Assembly: GCA_029550965.1 (NCBI GenBank)
Contig: JAKPGJ010000007.1
Span: forward strand, 1 to 64,000
DNA length: 64,000 nucleotides
Reading direction: 5' to 3'
Origin: Bacillota bacterium
GTDB lineage: Bacteria; Bacillota; Clostridia; Oscillospirales; CAG-382
Position 1 is the first letter of the stretch. Each line of letters starts with the position of its first letter. Of this stretch, positions 5,799 through 30,293 are shown in pieces. The notes under the pieces are model-generated. The model saw only the letters and a list, made by a program, of their open reading frames with translations. It searched no databases and was not told where the DNA came from. Position numbers and translations under genes: made by a program.

Positions 5799-6512
5799 TT
5801 ATACCGATTTTTTAATATGCCTGCCGATGAAAACCGCGCCAACGACGACGATCAGCACCGCGATAACACCGATAGCGGTTTTCAGCACGATATTGATATC
5901 GAAGTTGATTTTTTTCTCTTTTGCGATGTCGACATTCGTAATTTCTGCGCCGTCAAAATTGATTTTTATCTCCAGCGTGTTGCAGGAAACGAACTGATTG
6001 CCGTCGTCCATGACATCGGTATCGTCAATGCGCAGAACCGTGCCGTCGGCCGCTTCCGAAAGCACCTCAAAGGTAATATCCGTATAAAGGATGCCGTCCT
6101 CGGTAATGCCTTTGCCGGTTTCTTTCTCCGAATACATAAACGCGACATACAGATACAACTCGTCCGGATTGTCCTCGCTTGGCTTCGGCGCCGCGATTTC
6201 CTCAAAGCCGTCGCCCCAGGCTTCGGGCTTGTTGGTATTCCATTCAACCAGCCTTAGGCAAGTGCTGTCAAAGTACAGTTTGAACTGCGCAAGGATTAAA
6301 CCCTCTTCGGTCTGAATGTTGTTTACCGTGACCCGGACTTTAAATACATCGCCGACTTTCAGCGTCGAATAGTCCGCCGTCGCGGAAAACTCGGCGCTCA
6401 ACGCGCTTGCCGGAAGAACCGTCGCGCTCAACAGCACGATAGACACCATCAGAAAAACGAAAACCTTTTTGCTTTTCAACTTCGATATCCTCTTTCTAAT
6501 CCTTTTTCGCAT
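5799..6512 (-). CDS. Membrane-anchored cohesin-fold surface protein
   Basis: A 237-residue protein with a basic N-terminus and signal peptide ending near LPASALSA (about residue 40), a beta-rich extracellular domain of about 150 residues, and a C-terminal helix (about 208-228) followed by GRHIKKSV. The extracellular part resembles the cohesin/carbohydrate-binding-like fold: STLKVGDVFKVRVTVNNI, ILAQFKLYFDSTCLRLVEW, ILYTDITFEVL. Its start overlaps the end of the upstream phosphoesterase gene by 17 bases, indicating an operon and a possible surface complex. No dockerin was noticed in that partner. The cohesin assignment is by pattern only. Confidence 0.65.
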   Translation of the reverse strand: MRKRIRKRISKLKSKKVFVFLMVSIVLLSATVLPASALSAEFSATADYSTLKVGDVFKVRVTVNNIQTEEGLILAQFKLYFDSTCLRLVEWNTNKPEAWGDGFEEIAAPKPSEDNPDELYLYVAFMYSEKETGKGITEDGILYTDITFEVLSEAADGTVLRIDDTDVMDDGNQFVSCNTLEIKINFDGAEITNVDIAKEKKINFDINIVLKTAIGVIAVLIVVVGAVFIGRHIKKSV

Positions 6513-24227: not shown

Positions 24228-24510
24228 CTTATGTCATCCATTTCAATGCCTGAAAATTCGCGGTGAGTATATGATAATACAAACTTTCCCATTTTTCAAG
24301 AGCTTTTTTGCATTTTTTAAAAAATTGTGTATTATGATCATGTATTATGGTAAATGCGTTATGTAAACTTTATCAACCATAACATTATATAGTGTTCAGC
24401 CGGACGGGCGATGTCTATATATTGATTTTTTGATGAAATATTTTATTTTTACTCTTGCAATAAATTCTTCTTATATTTTTCGCGCGATTTTGATTGTGAA
24501 AATACACAAA
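24228..24510. other. AT-rich intergenic, no gene seen
   Basis: About 280 bases upstream of proC and downstream of the ABC permease terminator. Strongly AT-rich, with several A/T runs. It should hold the proC promoter, but I cannot single out a clear pair of boxes. No RNA gene recognised. Confidence 0.5.
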
Positions 24511-24559
24511 TAAAAAAACAGCCCGAAACCGCGCAGTACACAGCGGATTTCGAGCTGTA
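24511..24559 (-). terminator. Terminator of the ABC exporter operon
   Basis: On the minus strand ACAGCTCGAAATCCGC pairs, with small bulges, to GCGCGGTTTCGGGCTGT, followed by TTTTTTTAT. It is a long stem of about 16 bp just past the permease stop. Confidence 0.85.
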
Positions 24560-24588
24560 TTTTGATTGCTGATTCTATTGTTATACGG

Positions 24589-26919
24589 TTATAGATTGCA
24601 GAATGTTCTGTACGACCTTCGGATCAGGAGCGCGCACAACGCCGTTACCAGCGCAAGGAAGAGTATGAGCAGACCGAAATCGCCGATCACGCCCGCCTTC
24701 GCCGACAGCAGGAAGTAGTCGGTGGCGGAAAGAATGCCCGGCAGCGAGATATACCCGGCGTCCTGCAGGCCGAACTTGACAAGCATGTACGGAAGTATCG
24801 TCGCGATGGTAACCGTGCCTAATACGGTTATATTTTTCCGCATAAGCTCCGATACAGACGTGATGATCAGGTACAACAGCATAAATCCGACGATCCTGAC
24901 GACAAACATCAAAACCGCGTAGGTTTGTATCGAAATGCAGGAGGCCGCGGCTTCGAATCTCTCGATGCTGACAAGCGGCGCATCAGGCGCTGGCAGATAA
25001 TTGTAATTGAACAGATAAACAATATCCAGCGCGGCGAACGCCAATGTAAAGACCAGCGCGGTTATGCCGCAGGTTATAAACTTGGCTTTGAACGTTTTAT
25101 CCCTGCCCTTTTTTGTCGATTTGAGCAGCTGGTCGAAGCCGGAACGGTATTCGTCCGCGAACGCGCCGCTGAAAAGAAGCAAAAACAAAAGGAAAAGAAC
25201 GAAATCGAACTCGGCAAAGAACATATGATTCCAGCCCGTGTCGTAAACGAAATGCGCGGTCTTCCCTTCCAAAGCCATTCGGTCGATATACGCCGCGTGC
25301 TGTTCCACTCTGAAAAAGACCTTGCTTTTTATCTCCGCGACGTTATACTGCGAGTAATATTTGCTGTACTCTTCGCTTGTGATTATGCCGCTTTGAAACT
25401 GACTATCCATTATACTCTTTTGCGCTATTATTTCGTTGAGCCTCTGTCTTTCCTCACGGATATACTGCCTTTTTTCCTCCGTCATTTCGCCTTCGAGCTC
25501 GACCATATAATCTTTATAAATCTCGTCCTCAAAAGAGTTGCCGACCCTGTACGCGGAATCGTTGACGAGCACCTTAATCATTACGAACAGCAGAATAATT
25601 AAGATCGTTTTGTTGGCGAGCAGCAGCTTATAGAACTCGTATCCGTACAGATTTTTTACGACTATCCGCTTATGCCAGCTTCTCACTCCGTTTCGTAGCG
25701 AAACCGGAATCTTCAGCGGGATTTTCAACTTTTTGCTCATAACGCCCATTCGTATGAATTTTACAAAGAGCAATCCGCCGACGATACCGGCCGCGATCAG
25801 AAACAGCGCGCAGACTGCCACCGTAAATCCGTAGTGCGGAACACAGTATCCAAAAACATTTACCCCAAGATATCTTGCAAAGAACTTTTCCGACGCCGTG
25901 ATAAAGAACAGGTTCAGCACCCGGATCGGACTGTTCAGATTTGTATAAGTAATCGTGCTTAAATAATAGGACAGCCCGCAGAACGCCAGCGACGCGACAA
26001 AGGTATGCGTTACCCTTCTGAATAGAATCGAGAGCAGCATTACGACGGCGGCAAGCCCTATAAACGCCAGTATCTTAACGCCGAATGAAACCAGCAGAAA
26101 ACGCCCGATGCTAATCGGCAAAGGATTGACAAAAAAGTAATCGATCGCCTGAACGCTGTTGTGGATGGACGAAAAACCGGTTGTGAAGTATATTGCCAAT
26201 AATGGCAGACCTAAAAACAGAATACTGGTTACAACGCTTATGATTATACAAAATAAATATTTTGCGTTGTATAACCTCATCCTTCCGTACTTGGTGGTAT
26301 GTATAATCTGCTTGAGTCCCGTATTGTCCTCCGCGAGCACAATGCAGGGAACCGCGATTAAAAGATAAACAATAATCAGCAAATTTGGGATCGAGAATCG
26401 AAAATAATCGTCCCAGCCTTTGATCAGCTCAAACTCGATTTTTACGTTTTTTACCTTCGAATAGACCTCAATAACGCTGTCTTGATACCGGTAAAGATAG
26501 CTGTCCGGCGAAATGCCCACCGAAATATAATCCAGCTTGTTCCGCTCCGCTGTTTTGATAAAGACATCGATATTTTTATCAAACTTTTCTATATAATCGA
26601 TATGATGCAACACGTTTCTAAAAGCGGTTGCCTTTTTACTGATCGCTTTATATTCATCCGAAGAAAAATCGCCTTTTGCTACAAATTCACTCTGAAGCGC
26701 CGATATGGCGTTAAACTCCTTCATGAACGCTTCCCTGTCGGAAAGGTATAGCGCAAATACTTCTTCGACCTCTGTTTTGTCTATGTATTCGTTCGCCGCG
26801 TTCTTTTCATTAACATAGTAAACCGTCAGCGCCGCGTCGCAGACCAAAAGCAGAAGGAAAAATACGACCAAAAATTTGTTCAAAAAGAACTTTTTAGCTT
26901 CAAAACGCAGCACTTTCAT
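24589..26919 (-). CDS. ABC-2-type exporter permease, two-part
   Basis: A 776-residue permease. It begins with the typical cytoplasmic MKVLRFEAKKFFLNK and helix 1 (about 12-30), has an extracytoplasmic loop (about 35-165), a first bundle of roughly six helices to residue 395, then a second loop-containing half repeating the layout (helices from about 425, loop rich in Glu/Gln/Arg, five or six final helices). This internal duplication suggests one polypeptide supplies the whole membrane part. Its ATG overlaps the ATPase stop by 4 bases (ATGA), so the two are coupled. Substrate unknown; such exporters move peptides, lipids or antibiotics. Confidence 0.8.
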   Translation of the reverse strand: MKVLRFEAKKFFLNKFLVVFFLLLLVCDAALTVYYVNEKNAANEYIDKTEVEEVFALYLSDREAFMKEFNAISALQSEFVAKGDFSSDEYKAISKKATAFRNVLHHIDYIEKFDKNIDVFIKTAERNKLDYISVGISPDSYLYRYQDSVIEVYSKVKNVKIEFELIKGWDDYFRFSIPNLLIIVYLLIAVPCIVLAEDNTGLKQIIHTTKYGRMRLYNAKYLFCIIISVVTSILFLGLPLLAIYFTTGFSSIHNSVQAIDYFFVNPLPISIGRFLLVSFGVKILAFIGLAAVVMLLSILFRRVTHTFVASLAFCGLSYYLSTITYTNLNSPIRVLNLFFITASEKFFARYLGVNVFGYCVPHYGFTVAVCALFLIAAGIVGGLLFVKFIRMGVMSKKLKIPLKIPVSLRNGVRSWHKRIVVKNLYGYEFYKLLLANKTILIILLFVMIKVLVNDSAYRVGNSFEDEIYKDYMVELEGEMTEEKRQYIREERQRLNEIIAQKSIMDSQFQSGIITSEEYSKYYSQYNVAEIKSKVFFRVEQHAAYIDRMALEGKTAHFVYDTGWNHMFFAEFDFVLFLLFLLLFSGAFADEYRSGFDQLLKSTKKGRDKTFKAKFITCGITALVFTLAFAALDIVYLFNYNYLPAPDAPLVSIERFEAAASCISIQTYAVLMFVVRIVGFMLLYLIITSVSELMRKNITVLGTVTIATILPYMLVKFGLQDAGYISLPGILSATDYFLLSAKAGVIGDFGLLILFLALVTALCALLIRRSYRTFCNL

Positions 26920-27776
26920 AGGATGTCACCGAACACAAGCAGGTAGTAGTCTTCCAGAACCGGCGGAACCGAAACCGAATCATGCGTCGGCTGTTCGTCG
27001 GACAGAATCCGCAAAGCGACGCCGTCGTCGTTGTTTTGGATGTTGAGTATTCGAAATTTTTGCTGATATTCGGGCACCTGCTCGCTGGTTACGATCGTTT
27101 TCCATACCTTACCTTCCGCTTTTTTCAGCAGCGCTTCCGGCGCGCCGGCATCGGCGATTACGCCTTTTTTTAAGAAAATGATCTCTTTCGCTATGTACTC
27201 TACATCCGATACAATGTGTGTGGCGATGATGATGGTTCGGTTCAGTGCCGTGCGCGCGATGTAGTTGCGGATGGATATCCGCTGCTTCGGGTCAAGTCCC
27301 GCGGTCGGCTCGTCAAGGATAATCAGTTCCGGGTTCCCAAGCATCGCCTGCGCCAGCGCAAGACGCTGCTTCATGCCGCCGGAAAGCGTTTTAATCGCTC
27401 TGCTTCGAACGTCAGAAAGCTCTACCGCTTCCAAAAGTTCGGCGACCTGCTTATCCGCTTCCTTTTTCTCTACCCCTTTCAGAACCGCTATGTAGAAAAG
27501 AAAGTTCTCGACCGTAAACGCGGGATACATTCCGGGATTCTGCGGCATAAAACCGATCTTCTCGCGAAACTCCGCACCCATTTTCAGCGTATCGACGCCG
27601 TTCCAGGTGATATTGCCGCTGTCCGGCTTGAGGTTGTCCGTAATAATGTTCATCAGCGTGGACTTCCCCGACCCGTTCGGACCCAGCAAAGCATAAATCC
27701 CTTTGCCGAATTCGTAGCTGAAATCAATGAGCGCTTTGGTTGACCCGTAGGACTTTGAAAGATTGTTGATTTTCAT
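26916..27776 (-). CDS. ABC transporter ATP-binding protein
   Basis: A 286-residue ATPase partner of the downstream permease: Walker A LLGPNGSGKST, Q-loop FMPQNPGMY, signature LSGGMKQRLALAQAM, Walker B LIILDEPTAGLD and switch IATHIVSD. The start was set at ATG 27776 because GGGAGG lies 7 bases upstream; the frame continues upstream only through a TTG inside that site. The C-terminal 80 residues are a divergent extra domain. It lies downstream of the AT-rich lipoprotein gene with a 133-base gap and no clear terminator between. Confidence 0.92.
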   Translation of the reverse strand: MKINNLSKSYGSTKALIDFSYEFGKGIYALLGPNGSGKSTLMNIITDNLKPDSGNITWNGVDTLKMGAEFREKIGFMPQNPGMYPAFTVENFLFYIAVLKGVEKKEADKQVAELLEAVELSDVRSRAIKTLSGGMKQRLALAQAMLGNPELIILDEPTAGLDPKQRISIRNYIARTALNRTIIIATHIVSDVEYIAKEIIFLKKGVIADAGAPEALLKKAEGKVWKTIVTSEQVPEYQQKFRILNIQNNDDGVALRILSDEQPTHDSVSVPPVLEDYYLLVFGDIL

Positions 27777-27909
27777 AACGAATCCTCCCAAAGATACCGG
27801 CTTTTTATGTAACTGTTTTGTACTCTTTTATTGCTGTTCGCAACTGCGCACGCATTTTCTACCGTCACAGCGCGCTCGCCGCTATCGCTTTTCTTTTCAG
27901 AAAGGTCCC

Positions 27910-29001
27910 TTACGTCACCATCTTATACTCGCCGGTTATGATGTTTAGGACTGCGTACTCATATTCAATATAAACTTGACCATCACTATCTTTGCAATAT
28001 TTATTAAATCTTATTAAGCAATAATTATCTACTGTACTTTTATAATTATAGTTATTTAGATAAAATGGATCTAAATGATCGCCAAAATCACATAATTCTA
28101 TATTCTCAGATCCATCATATTTTGCACGATACAATTTACTTTCTATCACTTTATAATATTTTCTATTTAATACAGTATCTTCTATAATAAGCTCTTTTTC
28201 ACTGTTAAATTTCGTATAATAAACATAATCTCCTATCTCAAGTGATAAGTAAGCTTTATCTGTAATAATTGAATCGTCCGCGCTTTTTATAATCGCATAT
28301 TTAGTTTGCGGATCTTTTTCAAATTTGAATTTTCTTGTTTTTTTATTATTGCTTTGTTCAGTAACTCTATTATCTTTTAAGTCCAGCGTTGCGTTATATG
28401 ATTTTGTAGGATTATCAGTTTGAAAGTAAAATATTCGATCATTTTCGATTTTTTCTATAAAATAATTACCCTCAATTTTATCATTATTTAATTTTATAGT
28501 TTCATCTTCTGCGGTGATTTTATAGAAACTTGTATATGTTTTAATTTCGTTGTTTTCATCTTTTTCATAACATATTTCTGTGAAATAATAGTCCTCTTTA
28601 TAAGCAATATTTGATGTAAGAGTATCTTTGGTAGTGTAACATATTTTTAATTCTCCTGTCAATAAATTGTATTTTTTGACTTGGCTGTAAAAATTATAAT
28701 TTTCATCCTTTTCAGATGTTTCGTGCAGAAAATATATAACATTACCGCTTTCGGTAACAGAGTAAGCTCCTGGAAGGCAATAAAAAGGGCATTTATTTTT
28801 ATATAGATCCGAGTGATCACATAAAGGGTCTTGACAAATCGTTGTTGAAACAGCAGTTTCAACATTTATTTTGACTAATAAATCATTTAACACAAAAATA
28901 AAATACTTATCCGATAGCGATTTTTCATTTTCTTTTTTACAGGAGGACATCGGGGAGAATAAAAAAATGATAATTAAAAATATAGGAATAAACTTTTTCA
29001 T
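27910..29001 (-). CDS. Lipoprotein with CxDPLCxH motif (DUF5050-like)
   Basis: A 363-residue lipoprotein with signal peptide and lipobox FSPMSSC (lipidated Cys21). The mature part is beta-rich with many short YFxxxx strands. Near its start TICQDPLCDHSD followed by KCPFYC is a motif I associate with clostridial DUF5050-like lipoproteins, probably a disulfide or metal site at the base of a beta-propeller-like domain. The gene is far more AT-rich than its neighbours, uses A/T-ending codons, and has a good AGAGGTG site. It sits between a secreted-protein gene and the ABC exporter, suggesting a surface sensor or accessory of that exporter. Confidence 0.75.
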   Translation of the reverse strand: MKKFIPIFLIIIFLFSPMSSCKKENEKSLSDKYFIFVLNDLLVKINVETAVSTTICQDPLCDHSDLYKNKCPFYCLPGAYSVTESGNVIYFLHETSEKDENYNFYSQVKKYNLLTGELKICYTTKDTLTSNIAYKEDYYFTEICYEKDENNEIKTYTSFYKITAEDETIKLNNDKIEGNYFIEKIENDRIFYFQTDNPTKSYNATLDLKDNRVTEQSNNKKTRKFKFEKDPQTKYAIIKSADDSIITDKAYLSLEIGDYVYYTKFNSEKELIIEDTVLNRKYYKVIESKLYRAKYDGSENIELCDFGDHLDPFYLNNYNYKSTVDNYCLIRFNKYCKDSDGQVYIEYEYAVLNIITGEYKMVT

Positions 29002-29022
29002 ATCTACACCTCTAAAAAGACT

Positions 29023-29618
29023 AAAAGATGTGGCGTTATTTTATTATTTAATTATTTTCCAAAATTCCATGAATAAGTAGGAATATTTCCTGATTGTGTT
29101 CCATTATCTGGATAATTATAATTTGCTTTATATTTTCCTCTAGCTGTTAAAACAACATTTCCAAAAGGATCATAACGTACGATTCTATCAGAGTAAGGTA
29201 AATATACCGCATTAGTTTGTTTACCACTTGTCATTCCTTTTGAAGCTGCAGATACCATATAACCACCTGTATAACTTCCACTTGTACCTTCCGAGTATAA
29301 GCAATAATCAATTATAGGTATAATTTCAACTAACTGCCTACCATCACCTGCTCTAATCTCTCCATATAAAGTATAAGGCTGACTTTGAACATCCCATAAG
29401 CTATAATAAGCTAAATCGATTGCTACAGGGCCTAAAATCATTTTATTTTCGACTATACTATATGCATTAGTAGATAGTGATGAACCAAAAAATATTGAAA
29501 CGCAACATATTGATAATACTAATAATTTTGATATGTTTTTAAATTTTCTTTTAATATTTTCTTACTTTCTTTTGAAATTTTAAACAACAAATGAAACCAT
29601 AATAACGCCACATCTTTT
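29023..29618. repeat. 18-bp perfect inverted repeats flanking the secreted-protein gene
   Basis: AAAAGATGTGGCGTTATT at 29023-29040 and its exact reverse complement at 29601-29618. They bracket the gene at 29052-29555 almost exactly: one arm lies within the first few bases of its predicted transcript, the other just before the ribosome binding site of the lipoprotein gene. They could be ends of a small mobile cassette or arms of a long-range mRNA pairing. Confidence 0.8.
29052..29555 (-). CDS. Secreted protein without a conventional start codon
   Basis: The frame encodes about 168 residues if read from ATT at 29555: KRKFKN, a hydrophobic core SKLLVLSICCVSIFFG and SSLSTNA form a clear signal peptide, then a mature part of about 137 residues rich in Tyr, Gly and Ser (for example GSYTGGYMVSAASKGM, PYSDRIVRYDPFGNVV) ending YSWNFGK. 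No ATG, GTG or TTG lies between the upstream stop (29562-29564) and the signal peptide. The first ATG (29441) would delete the signal and lacks a ribosome binding site. Either a non-AUG start, reinitiation after a 20-codon leader ORF, or start loss or frameshift. Family unknown. AT-rich. Confidence 0.5.
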   Translation of the reverse strand: MKRKFKNISKLLVLSICCVSIFFGSSLSTNAYSIVENKMILGPVAIDLAYYSLWDVQSQPYTLYGEIRAGDGRQLVEIIPIIDYCLYSEGTSGSYTGGYMVSAASKGMTSGKQTNAVYLPYSDRIVRYDPFGNVVLTARGKYKANYNYPDNGTQSGNIPTYSWNFGK

Positions 29619-29628
29619 GTTTAATTTT

Positions 29629-29657
29629 ATTATAACCTATATGGAAATATATGTCAA
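29629..29657 (-). promoter_or_regulatory. Perfect consensus sigma-A promoter for the secreted protein/lipoprotein genes
   Basis: On the minus strand TTGACA (29657-29652), 17-base spacer, TATAAT (29634-29629). The start of transcription near 29622 places the 18-bp repeat arm at the very 5' end of the mRNA. Confidence 0.8.
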
Positions 29658-29673
29658 TAATGTAATTTTATTT

Positions 29674-29796
29674 TTATATCATTTTATTTAGATCATTGTA
29701 TTCACTAGTTATAAACAATTGCGTAATCAAACTTATATTTTGCATCTTGTATTTATTGCAACTACGACATATTTTGTCAGCTTGATTTAATTCTAT
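29674..29796 (-). pseudogene. 40-codon ORF with ideal ribosome binding site but ATA in start position
   Basis: AGGAGGTGG (29809-29801), a near-perfect match to the anti-Shine-Dalgarno, is followed 4 bases later by ATA GAA TTA AAT and an open frame to TAA at 29674. The peptide would read (I/M)ELNQADKICRSCNKYKM... with a CRSC pair. ATG to ATA is one change, so this may be a start-lost small gene, or coincidence in AT-rich DNA. No family recognised. Confidence 0.3.
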
Positions 29797-29831
29797 GTAA
29801 CCACCTCCTCATAATTTTAAAATGTTTTTAC

Positions 29832-29860
29832 TTGACAAAATAATTAAGTAACTGTATATT
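29832..29860 (+). promoter_or_regulatory. Sigma-A promoter for the 29904 membrane protein
   Basis: TTGACA (29832-29837), 17-base spacer, TATATT (29855-29860). About 44 bases ahead of the chosen ATG. Confidence 0.7.
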
Positions 29861-29903
29861 GGTTATAAGATAAATTTAATTATTTTTGGTAATGGTAAGA
29901 AGT

Positions 29904-30293
29904 ATGAACGATAAATCAAAGCTGTTTCTTCTTTGTACTGTTTGCTTTTTCATCTCGTCGCTGACGGTGTTTTTCATCCCGGCTTTTCCGAGAGATAGCA
30001 ACGTGACAGGCGCCAACATACTCGCAGGCATATTCTGGATTTTTTTGATTGGCGGAATTGCCTTGGCGGTAATTCTTCTAAAAAATACAAAGAAGAGCAC
30101 AAAAGGACTGAACGTGTTTCGGTTTTTTAAAAGCAAGCCGGCGATCATAACCGATACTATTCTGGTTATTTCCGCGGCTGCATTCGTGTTGCTGAATGTT
30201 TTGGATGTTCGTTCGGAAATCCTTCAAGAAATCACGGTCTTTCTGCTTCTTTTTTCCATAGAAATGCACTGCGTATTAAATCTTCTTGATTGA
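29904..30293 (+). CDS. Four-helix membrane protein, unknown
   Basis: A 129-residue protein with helices near 8-27, 40-62, 83-103 and 107-126 and a basic loop KNTKKSTKGLNVFRFFKSK between helices 2 and 3, likely cytoplasmic. I do not recognise a family. Starts at ATG 29904; an in-frame ATG at 29892 is possible. It has its own promoter and terminator, so it is a single-gene transcript. Base composition returns to normal within this gene, marking the edge of the AT-rich island. Confidence 0.6.
   Translation: MNDKSKLFLLCTVCFFISSLTVFFIPAFPRDSNVTGANILAGIFWIFLIGGIALAVILLKNTKKSTKGLNVFRFFKSKPAIITDTILVISAAAFVLLNVLDVRSEILQEITVFLLLFSIEMHCVLNLLD

Follow-up and report, generated by a model that had tools for sequence, protein, structure and literature searches.

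A recurring four-gene cassette of gut-type Clostridia encoding a secreted protein, a predicted propeller lipoprotein and an ABC transporter

Why would a bacterium encode a small secreted protein, a surface lipoprotein and an ATP-binding cassette (ABC) transporter side by side? The question is posed by a 64,000-nucleotide stretch of DNA (the window, by which we mean the whole stretch analyzed: positions 1 to 64,000 of contig JAKPGJ010000007.1, assembly GCA_029550965.1) from a Bacillota bacterium of the Oscillospirales, lineage CAG-382. Four genes, for a secreted protein, a lipoprotein, an ATPase and a permease, lie there between positions 29657 and 24505, all on the minus strand. We report that this cassette is a recurring, unnamed four-gene unit in uncultured gut-type Clostridia. 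Our favored, though tentative, reading is that of an accessory cassette in which a secreted antagonist or signal is combined with LanI/LanFEG-like surface protection.

In transcription order the genes encode the secreted protein (29052–29555), a lipoprotein of 363 residues (27910–29001), an ABC ATPase of 286 residues (26916–27776) and a permease of 776 residues (24589–26919). A gap of about 130 nucleotides separates the lipoprotein and ATPase genes, and the end of the ATPase gene is overlapped by the start of the permease gene. Ahead of the first gene stands a sigma-70-type promoter (29629–29657, minus strand) in which TTGACA and TATAAT, 17 nucleotides apart, match the consensus at 12 of 12 positions; it ranks first among 30 promoter-like matches, 18.0 being expected from shuffled sequences at the scan threshold. 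An intrinsic terminator, a hairpin followed by a T tract, lies behind the permease gene (24505–24570, minus strand), with a folding energy of −28.3 kcal/mol (z −5.97) that none of 200 shuffles equaled. The gene order, strong promoter and terminator proposed in an initial annotation, made from the sequence without database searches, were all recovered, and the four genes are likely to form one transcription unit.

The lipoprotein gives the cassette its clearest signature. Its lipobox cysteine is Cys21, and residues 56–63 read CQDPLCDH, in agreement with the CxDPLCxH lipoprotein first annotated. An alignment of 38 members extends this to the motif CX4CXH-X7-C (C56, C61, H63 and C71; 28789–28836, minus strand). 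C21, C56, C61 and H63 are invariant in both a 13-member and the 38-member alignment, and C71 is invariant in the latter. CX4CXH occurs in 117 of 126 open reading frames (ORFs) of the family versus 14 of 396 other ORFs of at least 300 residues. The AlphaFold2 model of the window protein is a propeller (predicted local distance difference test, pLDDT, 81.5; predicted template modeling score, pTM, 0.79), and VIA-align ranked first the Eubacterium rectale protein 3s25, which is propeller-like and seven-bladed (Z 15.1 over 249 residues, root mean square deviation 4.1). As unrelated propellers tie with that Z score, the propeller fold, and nothing closer, is supported, and the window protein is predicted to be a beta-propeller lipoprotein. 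Its sequence matched no chain of the PDB and nothing in the plasmids searched. A second lipoprotein of the family is present in the same genome (contig C20, 68804–69876); it is AT-rich, is split by a frameshift (L003/L004) and lies near rpsO (recognized by eye), and the stretch read shows no transporter next to it.

The ATPase matches ABC_tran (E 4.5e-35); it starts at an ATG, an alternative TTG start at 27791 being possible. The permease consists of two homologous ABC-2-like halves joined at about residue 405 (hhalign 99.8%, E 1.3e-28, 310 columns), which some relatives encode as separate genes, and the early description of a fused two-part permease is borne out by both observations. A hydropathy scan gave 11 membrane segments, each half having one segment, a long soluble stretch and then several segments. 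PF12698 (ABC2_membrane_3; 8.9e-7) and PF12730 (ABC2_membrane_4; 1.6e-4) were each found in one of 12 permease members, and the window permease matched neither. Among the PADLOC models of anti-phage defense, the window ATPase matches many ATPase models, as ABC ATPases do, and the secreted protein, lipoprotein and permease match none at E ≤ 0.01; these three proteins also matched no curated function model.

That the four genes belong together is indicated by their recurrence. Single-sequence searches (149 genomes for the secreted protein, 99 for the lipoprotein and permease) placed relatives of all three proteins next to one another in contig C86 of genome G059, which belongs to another genus; this locus, L043, has the same four-gene order and strand as the window. 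Identity between the two cassettes is 56% for the ATPase, 27% for the permease, 23% for the lipoprotein and 38% over 52 residues for the secreted protein. In contig C73 of another genome (G041), lipoprotein and permease relatives were found by independent searches. Of 394 genomes from the order, 72 matched a permease profile at E ≤ 1e-20; at E ≤ 1e-40 the profile matched 6 of 398 genomes sampled through the phylum, three of them in the order, the genome of the window included. A lipoprotein profile gave 13 matches in 6 of 60 genomes, all among the 12 permease-positive ones; note that this profile was built largely from those genomes and is not independent evidence. The 28 named contigs that carry the permease come from uncultured Clostridia and their kin, mostly of ruminant and other animal guts. 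Four of these 28 loci belong to RGIG6940 (sheep rumen), so that some genomes have the unit many times over. In L043, a 23-nucleotide inverted repeat (5866–5888 and 6472–6494, 87%) upstream of the secreted-protein gene encloses about 580 bp without an assigned gene, which looks like a small non-coding insertion element.

The anatomy of the unit was compared over 86 distinct permease loci: the window, 20 plus 40 fetched regions (a part of the permease matches) and 25 loci from the named contigs, three of the 28 returned being dropped as duplicates. Many of these stretches stop at contig ends, and absences among the 86 are upper bounds. A permease ORF of at least 600 residues was found in 79 loci, an ATPase in 74 and a CX4CXH lipoprotein in 70. 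A small secreted protein adjoins a lipoprotein in 16 of the 86 (17 genes, two of them in L116), and 15 of these 16 loci contain a motif lipoprotein. The four-gene association first noted in the window is therefore real and repeated, and homologous exporters consistently devoid of such partners, the observation that would have spoken against it, are not what the neighborhood survey returned. When a neutral gene set was used, a small secreted protein was the immediate 5' neighbor in 12 of 101 cases for family lipoproteins and in 8 of 328 for other genes (Fisher p = 3.7e-4); the window, with its ATT start, does not enter this test. Of the eight, at least three (L097, L114 and L115) are themselves cassettes, in which a lipoprotein that the profile does not cover comes next. 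Candidates that were antisense, overlapping, membrane-spanning or not adjoining the unit were rejected; a second, downstream candidate of 149 residues in L113 stands outside the count of 17, and the signal peptide in L156 is short and doubtful. Two or more motif lipoproteins occur in 32 of the 86 loci, with a maximum of seven. Such arrays mostly come without a secreted protein. In L133, L147 and L148 five to seven lipoproteins are arrayed around one permease, L133 and L147 reaching up to seven. Directly 5' of the lipoprotein–ATPase–permease unit, L121 and L122 have two-component regulators and L126 has a kinase fragment.

The secreted proteins are the variable part of the cassette. Signal peptides were assigned by our own hydropathy rule and then by eye. 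That of the window protein has about 30 residues and ends in STNA, leaving a mature part of about 136 residues (29055–29462). The frame has no ATG, GTG or TTG 5' of the signal peptide; it opens at an ATT (29555–29553), which aligns opposite the ATG start of the L043 relative, and its first ATG, at 29441, lies behind the signal peptide and would give an ORF of 129 residues. The signal-peptide gene annotated from 29555 thus stands as to its signal peptide, but the end point is no standard start codon, and the window copy may use the ATT or may be losing function. Neither Pfam nor NCBIfam contains a family that matches the window protein, and no family was above the cut-off for the secreted proteins of the cassettes (11 run through Pfam, 13 through NCBIfam). 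The L045 protein matched the BLB8/JUQZ-1 model at E 0.17, over residues 1–27 only. A structure prediction for the mature window protein, one of the checks suggested at the outset, was run, but the single-sequence model (pLDDT 30) is unusable and uninformative for the fold. The viral contigs and plasmids searched with the window protein gave no match, and a weak match in G016 (E 0.0026, two stops) was discarded as chance.

When 18 mature parts were compared all against all, the window and L043 proteins paired (E 1.2e-4), as did those of L114 and L115, the two of L116 and, weakly, those of L046 and L109 (1.4e-3). The remaining proteins were unrelated by sequence. All are alike in size (about 100–165 residues when mature), in the abundance of S, T, N, G and aromatic residues, and in position. 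The permeases of L043, L045, L046 and L047 are each 26–27% identical to that of the window, and among these four loci only the secreted protein of L043 is confidently related to the window protein (E 1.2e-4; the others at least 0.2). Cargo swapped against a kept protection unit is typical of toxin–immunity conflict, and a kept transporter with a changing secreted partner fits such a conflict.

The first two genes of the window are strikingly AT-rich and the exporter has normal composition, as the initial annotation had remarked: GC is 0.27 for the lipoprotein and 0.30 for the secreted ORF versus 0.51 for the ATPase and 0.45 for the permease, and GC at third codon positions (GC3) is 0.22 and 0.13 versus 0.64 and 0.59. 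The GC profile that had been suggested located an AT-rich block at approximately 27960–29905 (GC about 0.12–0.40 in 60-nucleotide windows). Its upper edge is the start of the next gene, and its lower edge falls inside the last 15 or so codons of the lipoprotein gene, which in composition already resemble the exporter genes. A plus-strand promoter match (29832–29860, 11 of 12) in the intergenic part of this AT-rich block faces a divergent membrane-protein gene (29886–30293). The contrast had been read as an acquired module joined to a resident exporter, a reading that we do not favor, given how general low lipoprotein GC3 is and that the exporter itself is patchy. Of the 67 loci that encode a motif lipoprotein on the same strand as the permease, 55 have a lower GC3 in the lipoprotein gene than in the permease gene (Wilcoxon p 8e-9); the comparison with the ATPase gene gives 47 of 55, and no contrast is more extreme than that of the window. 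The low GC of the surface genes thus belongs to the cassette as a kind, and because low-GC surface genes recur across it, AT-richness is weak evidence of recent import. The whole cassette, exporter included, is patchy and is missing from both same-genus genomes searched; neither gave a permease match (E ≤ 1e-4, 1e-20 and 1e-10), and the exporter itself is thus accessory. Its neighbor proC is present in both of those genomes, the other neighbors differ, and no clean empty insertion site was found there. Recombination might still have exchanged the surface genes, given that the composition changes within the 3' end of the lipoprotein gene.

How might such a unit work? The initial annotation suggested, as an example, an antimicrobial or signaling protein with its surface receptor and pump. 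The repeated association supports that grouping, but a pump for the secreted protein is unlikely, since a protein with its own signal peptide needs no dedicated exporter, and protection or sensing is the more natural role. In the reading that we favor, the small protein would be exported by Sec, as its signal peptide suggests, and its extracellular action would be directed at bacteria related to the producer, most probably as a narrow-spectrum, bacteriocin-like antagonist and less probably as a signal. The lipid-anchored propeller would bind the secreted protein, or the target that it attacks, at the surface of the producer, and the ATPase together with the pseudo-dimeric ABC-2-like permease would use ATP to clear bound protein from the membrane, a logic that parallels NisI/NisFEG and the lactococcin 972 operon. 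Co-transcription, secretion, toxicity, binding and the direction of transport are what we infer in this scheme. Partner replacement, tandem lipoproteins without a partner and linked two-component systems fit self-protection, and lipoprotein arrays mostly without a secreted protein are as expected for collected protections.

Several observations weigh against this scheme. To our knowledge, neither toxicity nor binding nor expression has been documented for any member of the cassette, and Pfam, NCBIfam and PADLOC revealed no homologue among known bacteriocins and immunity proteins. Secreted proteins of the window type are rare: one other convincing genome was found among 149 relatives, and no other case in 394 genomes of the order, a sample evidently without G059. 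The homologous pair formed by the window and L043 shows no lower conservation of the secreted protein than of the lipoprotein or permease, so rapid divergence is not seen in this pair. The window copy may also be weakly translated or decaying, given its nonstandard start and poor Shine-Dalgarno sequence: the L043 gene has an obvious ribosome-binding site, and that of the window has no clear one. Finally, 70 of the 86 permease loci are without a recognized small secreted protein, which argues that the transporter–lipoprotein pair works without one.

This last figure also speaks for envelope defense against the antimicrobial peptides or bacteriocins of others, with the secreted protein as an optional decoy, sensor ligand or cell-wall protein. 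The multi-lipoprotein arrays and the histidine kinase and response regulator beside some units would suit such a role. We nevertheless consider it possible but somewhat unlikely, as secreted proteins lie directly 5' of the lipoprotein more often than of other genes and two genera share the four-gene order. Distinctly unlikely, in our judgment, is a role in signaling or adhesion, in which a surface or communication protein would be recognized by a propeller receptor and the ABC transporter would act as a signal transducer or small-molecule exporter. Propellers are common as binding modules and the composition of the secreted proteins resembles that of many surface proteins, but Pfam and NCBIfam show no cell-wall anchor, repeat or adhesin domain, the window has no dedicated sensor, and the sequences are too diverse for a single common signal. 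Very unlikely is metal or cofactor handling, in which CX4CXH...C would bind a metal, the transporter would export the metal complex and the secreted protein would be unrelated: three cysteines and one histidine are invariant in 38 of 38 aligned lipoproteins, but such a cluster could equally be a disulfide-pinned loop, ABC-2-type permeases are not typical metal exporters, and the small secreted proteins would be left unexplained. Equally improbable is that the secreted ORF is a decaying or chance neighbor and that the lipoprotein, ATPase and permease alone form the working unit, since its ATT start, weak ribosome-binding site and low GC3 are set against 166 open codons in sequence of 30% GC, a signal peptide, a homologue in the corresponding position of G059 and a promoter that matches the consensus perfectly.

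A side observation concerns the sequence around the secreted-protein gene. An 18-nucleotide perfect inverted repeat flanks it, one arm (29601–29618) in the leader just downstream of the promoter and the other (29023–29040) after the stop codon and ahead of the lipoprotein gene's ribosome-binding site. Dinucleotide shuffling of 27901–29900, repeated 200 times, gave no perfect repeat longer than 14 nucleotides. No other copy in the genome was found above a reversed-pattern control and neither a target duplication nor a transposase was seen by eye, and the repeat was rejected as a mobile element. A perfect match of at least 13 nucleotides between the leader and the stretch behind the stop codon was found in three of the 17 secreted-protein genes: 18 nucleotides in the window, 15 in L102 (3072–3086 and 3572–3586) and 13 in L047 (about 1830–1842 and 2483–2495). 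The three genes are unrelated in sequence, and each repeat beat all 100 of its shuffles. Note that the L102 start codon (ATG 3102) was picked by eye and that this choice decides whether the arm counts as leader. The other 14 genes have no such repeat, which is thus not general. Among control genes, which include the window and L047, 4 of 368 have one (3 of 17 versus 2 of about 352, p 8e-4). Duplex z scores were −7.1, −5.2 and −3.3 for the three genes and −0.07 to +1.5 for the 11 of the other 14 that were tested; 3 of 160 controls fell below −3. The closing stem is present in each of the three minimum-energy folds, with overall z of −3.0, −1.4 and −2.0, and the L102 stretch as a whole is not stabler than chance (10 of 100 shuffles equally stable).

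These repeats could be an RNA foldback of the kind known from type I toxin mRNAs, a DNA inversion site or an insertion scar. If a foldback, the leader would in part of the family pair behind the stop codon, and the secreted protein and the protection genes could be expressed apart despite a shared promoter. A bolder form of the scheme, which we regard as doubtful, is that the cassettes of gut Clostridia represent a class of protein antagonists not described before: polymorphic Sec-secreted proteins of 100–165 residues, each with its own Cys/His-motif propeller lipoprotein to make self-protection specific and a pseudo-dimeric ABC-2-like pump to clear the membrane, production being foldback-gated in part of the family. 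Should the secreted proteins be antagonists, genome data would reveal a set of candidate gut antimicrobial proteins together with matched protection genes, and a lineage's past encounters with antagonists would be written in its lipoprotein arrays. Should they not be, there is still a function to be found for a family of surface lipoproteins that has an invariant Cys3-His motif and goes with a single type of transporter.

Our search of the open-access literature (titles, abstracts and passages), a weak negative, found no description of the cassette, nor did the literature searched describe a CX4CXH...C signature tied to an ABC-2-like transporter. One of the closest known systems is nisin-type immunity, with LanI as lipoprotein and LanFEG as ABC transporter. 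LanE and LanG are two permease subunits, and the cassette permease likewise supplies two homologous halves per ATPase, a functional likeness rather than proof of kinship; unlike LanFEG, the cassette has the halves fused. The window ATPase scores 142.7 bits against TIGR03740 (lantibiotic protection), below the curated cut-off of 309.75. No hint of LanB, LanC or LanM was seen by eye in the ORFs around the cassette, no profile search for them having been made. In nisin producers, according to passages of PMC4828448, a lipoprotein and an ABC transporter encoded with the secreted agent act together in self-protection, and the cassette similarly groups its secreted agent, here an unrelated Sec-type protein of about 136 residues, with a lipoprotein and an ABC transporter. 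The same passages describe NisI as two mainly beta domains and report two-component systems in lantibiotic immunity and resistance operons, as seen beside some cassette relatives. The cassette lipoprotein, a predicted beta-propeller, falls outside the NisI/SpaI fold.

For the propeller itself the nearest match is DUF5050, to which 3s25 (EUBREC_1955), the top structural match, belongs. Eight of the 38 lipoproteins match the DUF5050 profile (best E 1.9e-9), the window protein not being one of them. A DUF5050 (PF16472) beta-propeller, TsgL, is part of T7SSg according to PMC11217815. The foldback has its counterpart in type I toxin mRNAs such as hok and aapA, for which passages of PMC6733600 describe a long-distance interaction between the 5' and 3' ends. 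Such pairing keeps the mRNA from being translated until its 3' end is processed. The cassette leader is similarly predicted to pair with the stretch after the ORF, but in 3 of 17 genes, and the product is a secreted protein rather than a small membrane peptide. As to the antisense RNA of those systems, no Rfam family matched in the window, and none was sought beyond Rfam.

The lactococcin 972 model (PF09683) did not match the window protein (E ≤ 1) or the other secreted proteins (11 in the Pfam search, 13 in that of NCBIfam), and the window ATPase scores 132.2 bits against TIGR03608, below its cut-off of 254.85. Lactococcin 972 itself, according to PMC4786598, is a Sec-exported bacteriocin encoded with a putative immunity ABC transporter. 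The cassette likewise combines a protein with a Sec-type signal peptide, as judged by inspection and the hydropathy rule, and a transporter in one unit; unlike that operon it has a lipoprotein, and its permease looks ABC-2-like. Because the cassette fails the sequence tests of both the LanI/LanFEG and the lactococcin 972 families, our claim is that it would work like these systems, not that it is one of them.

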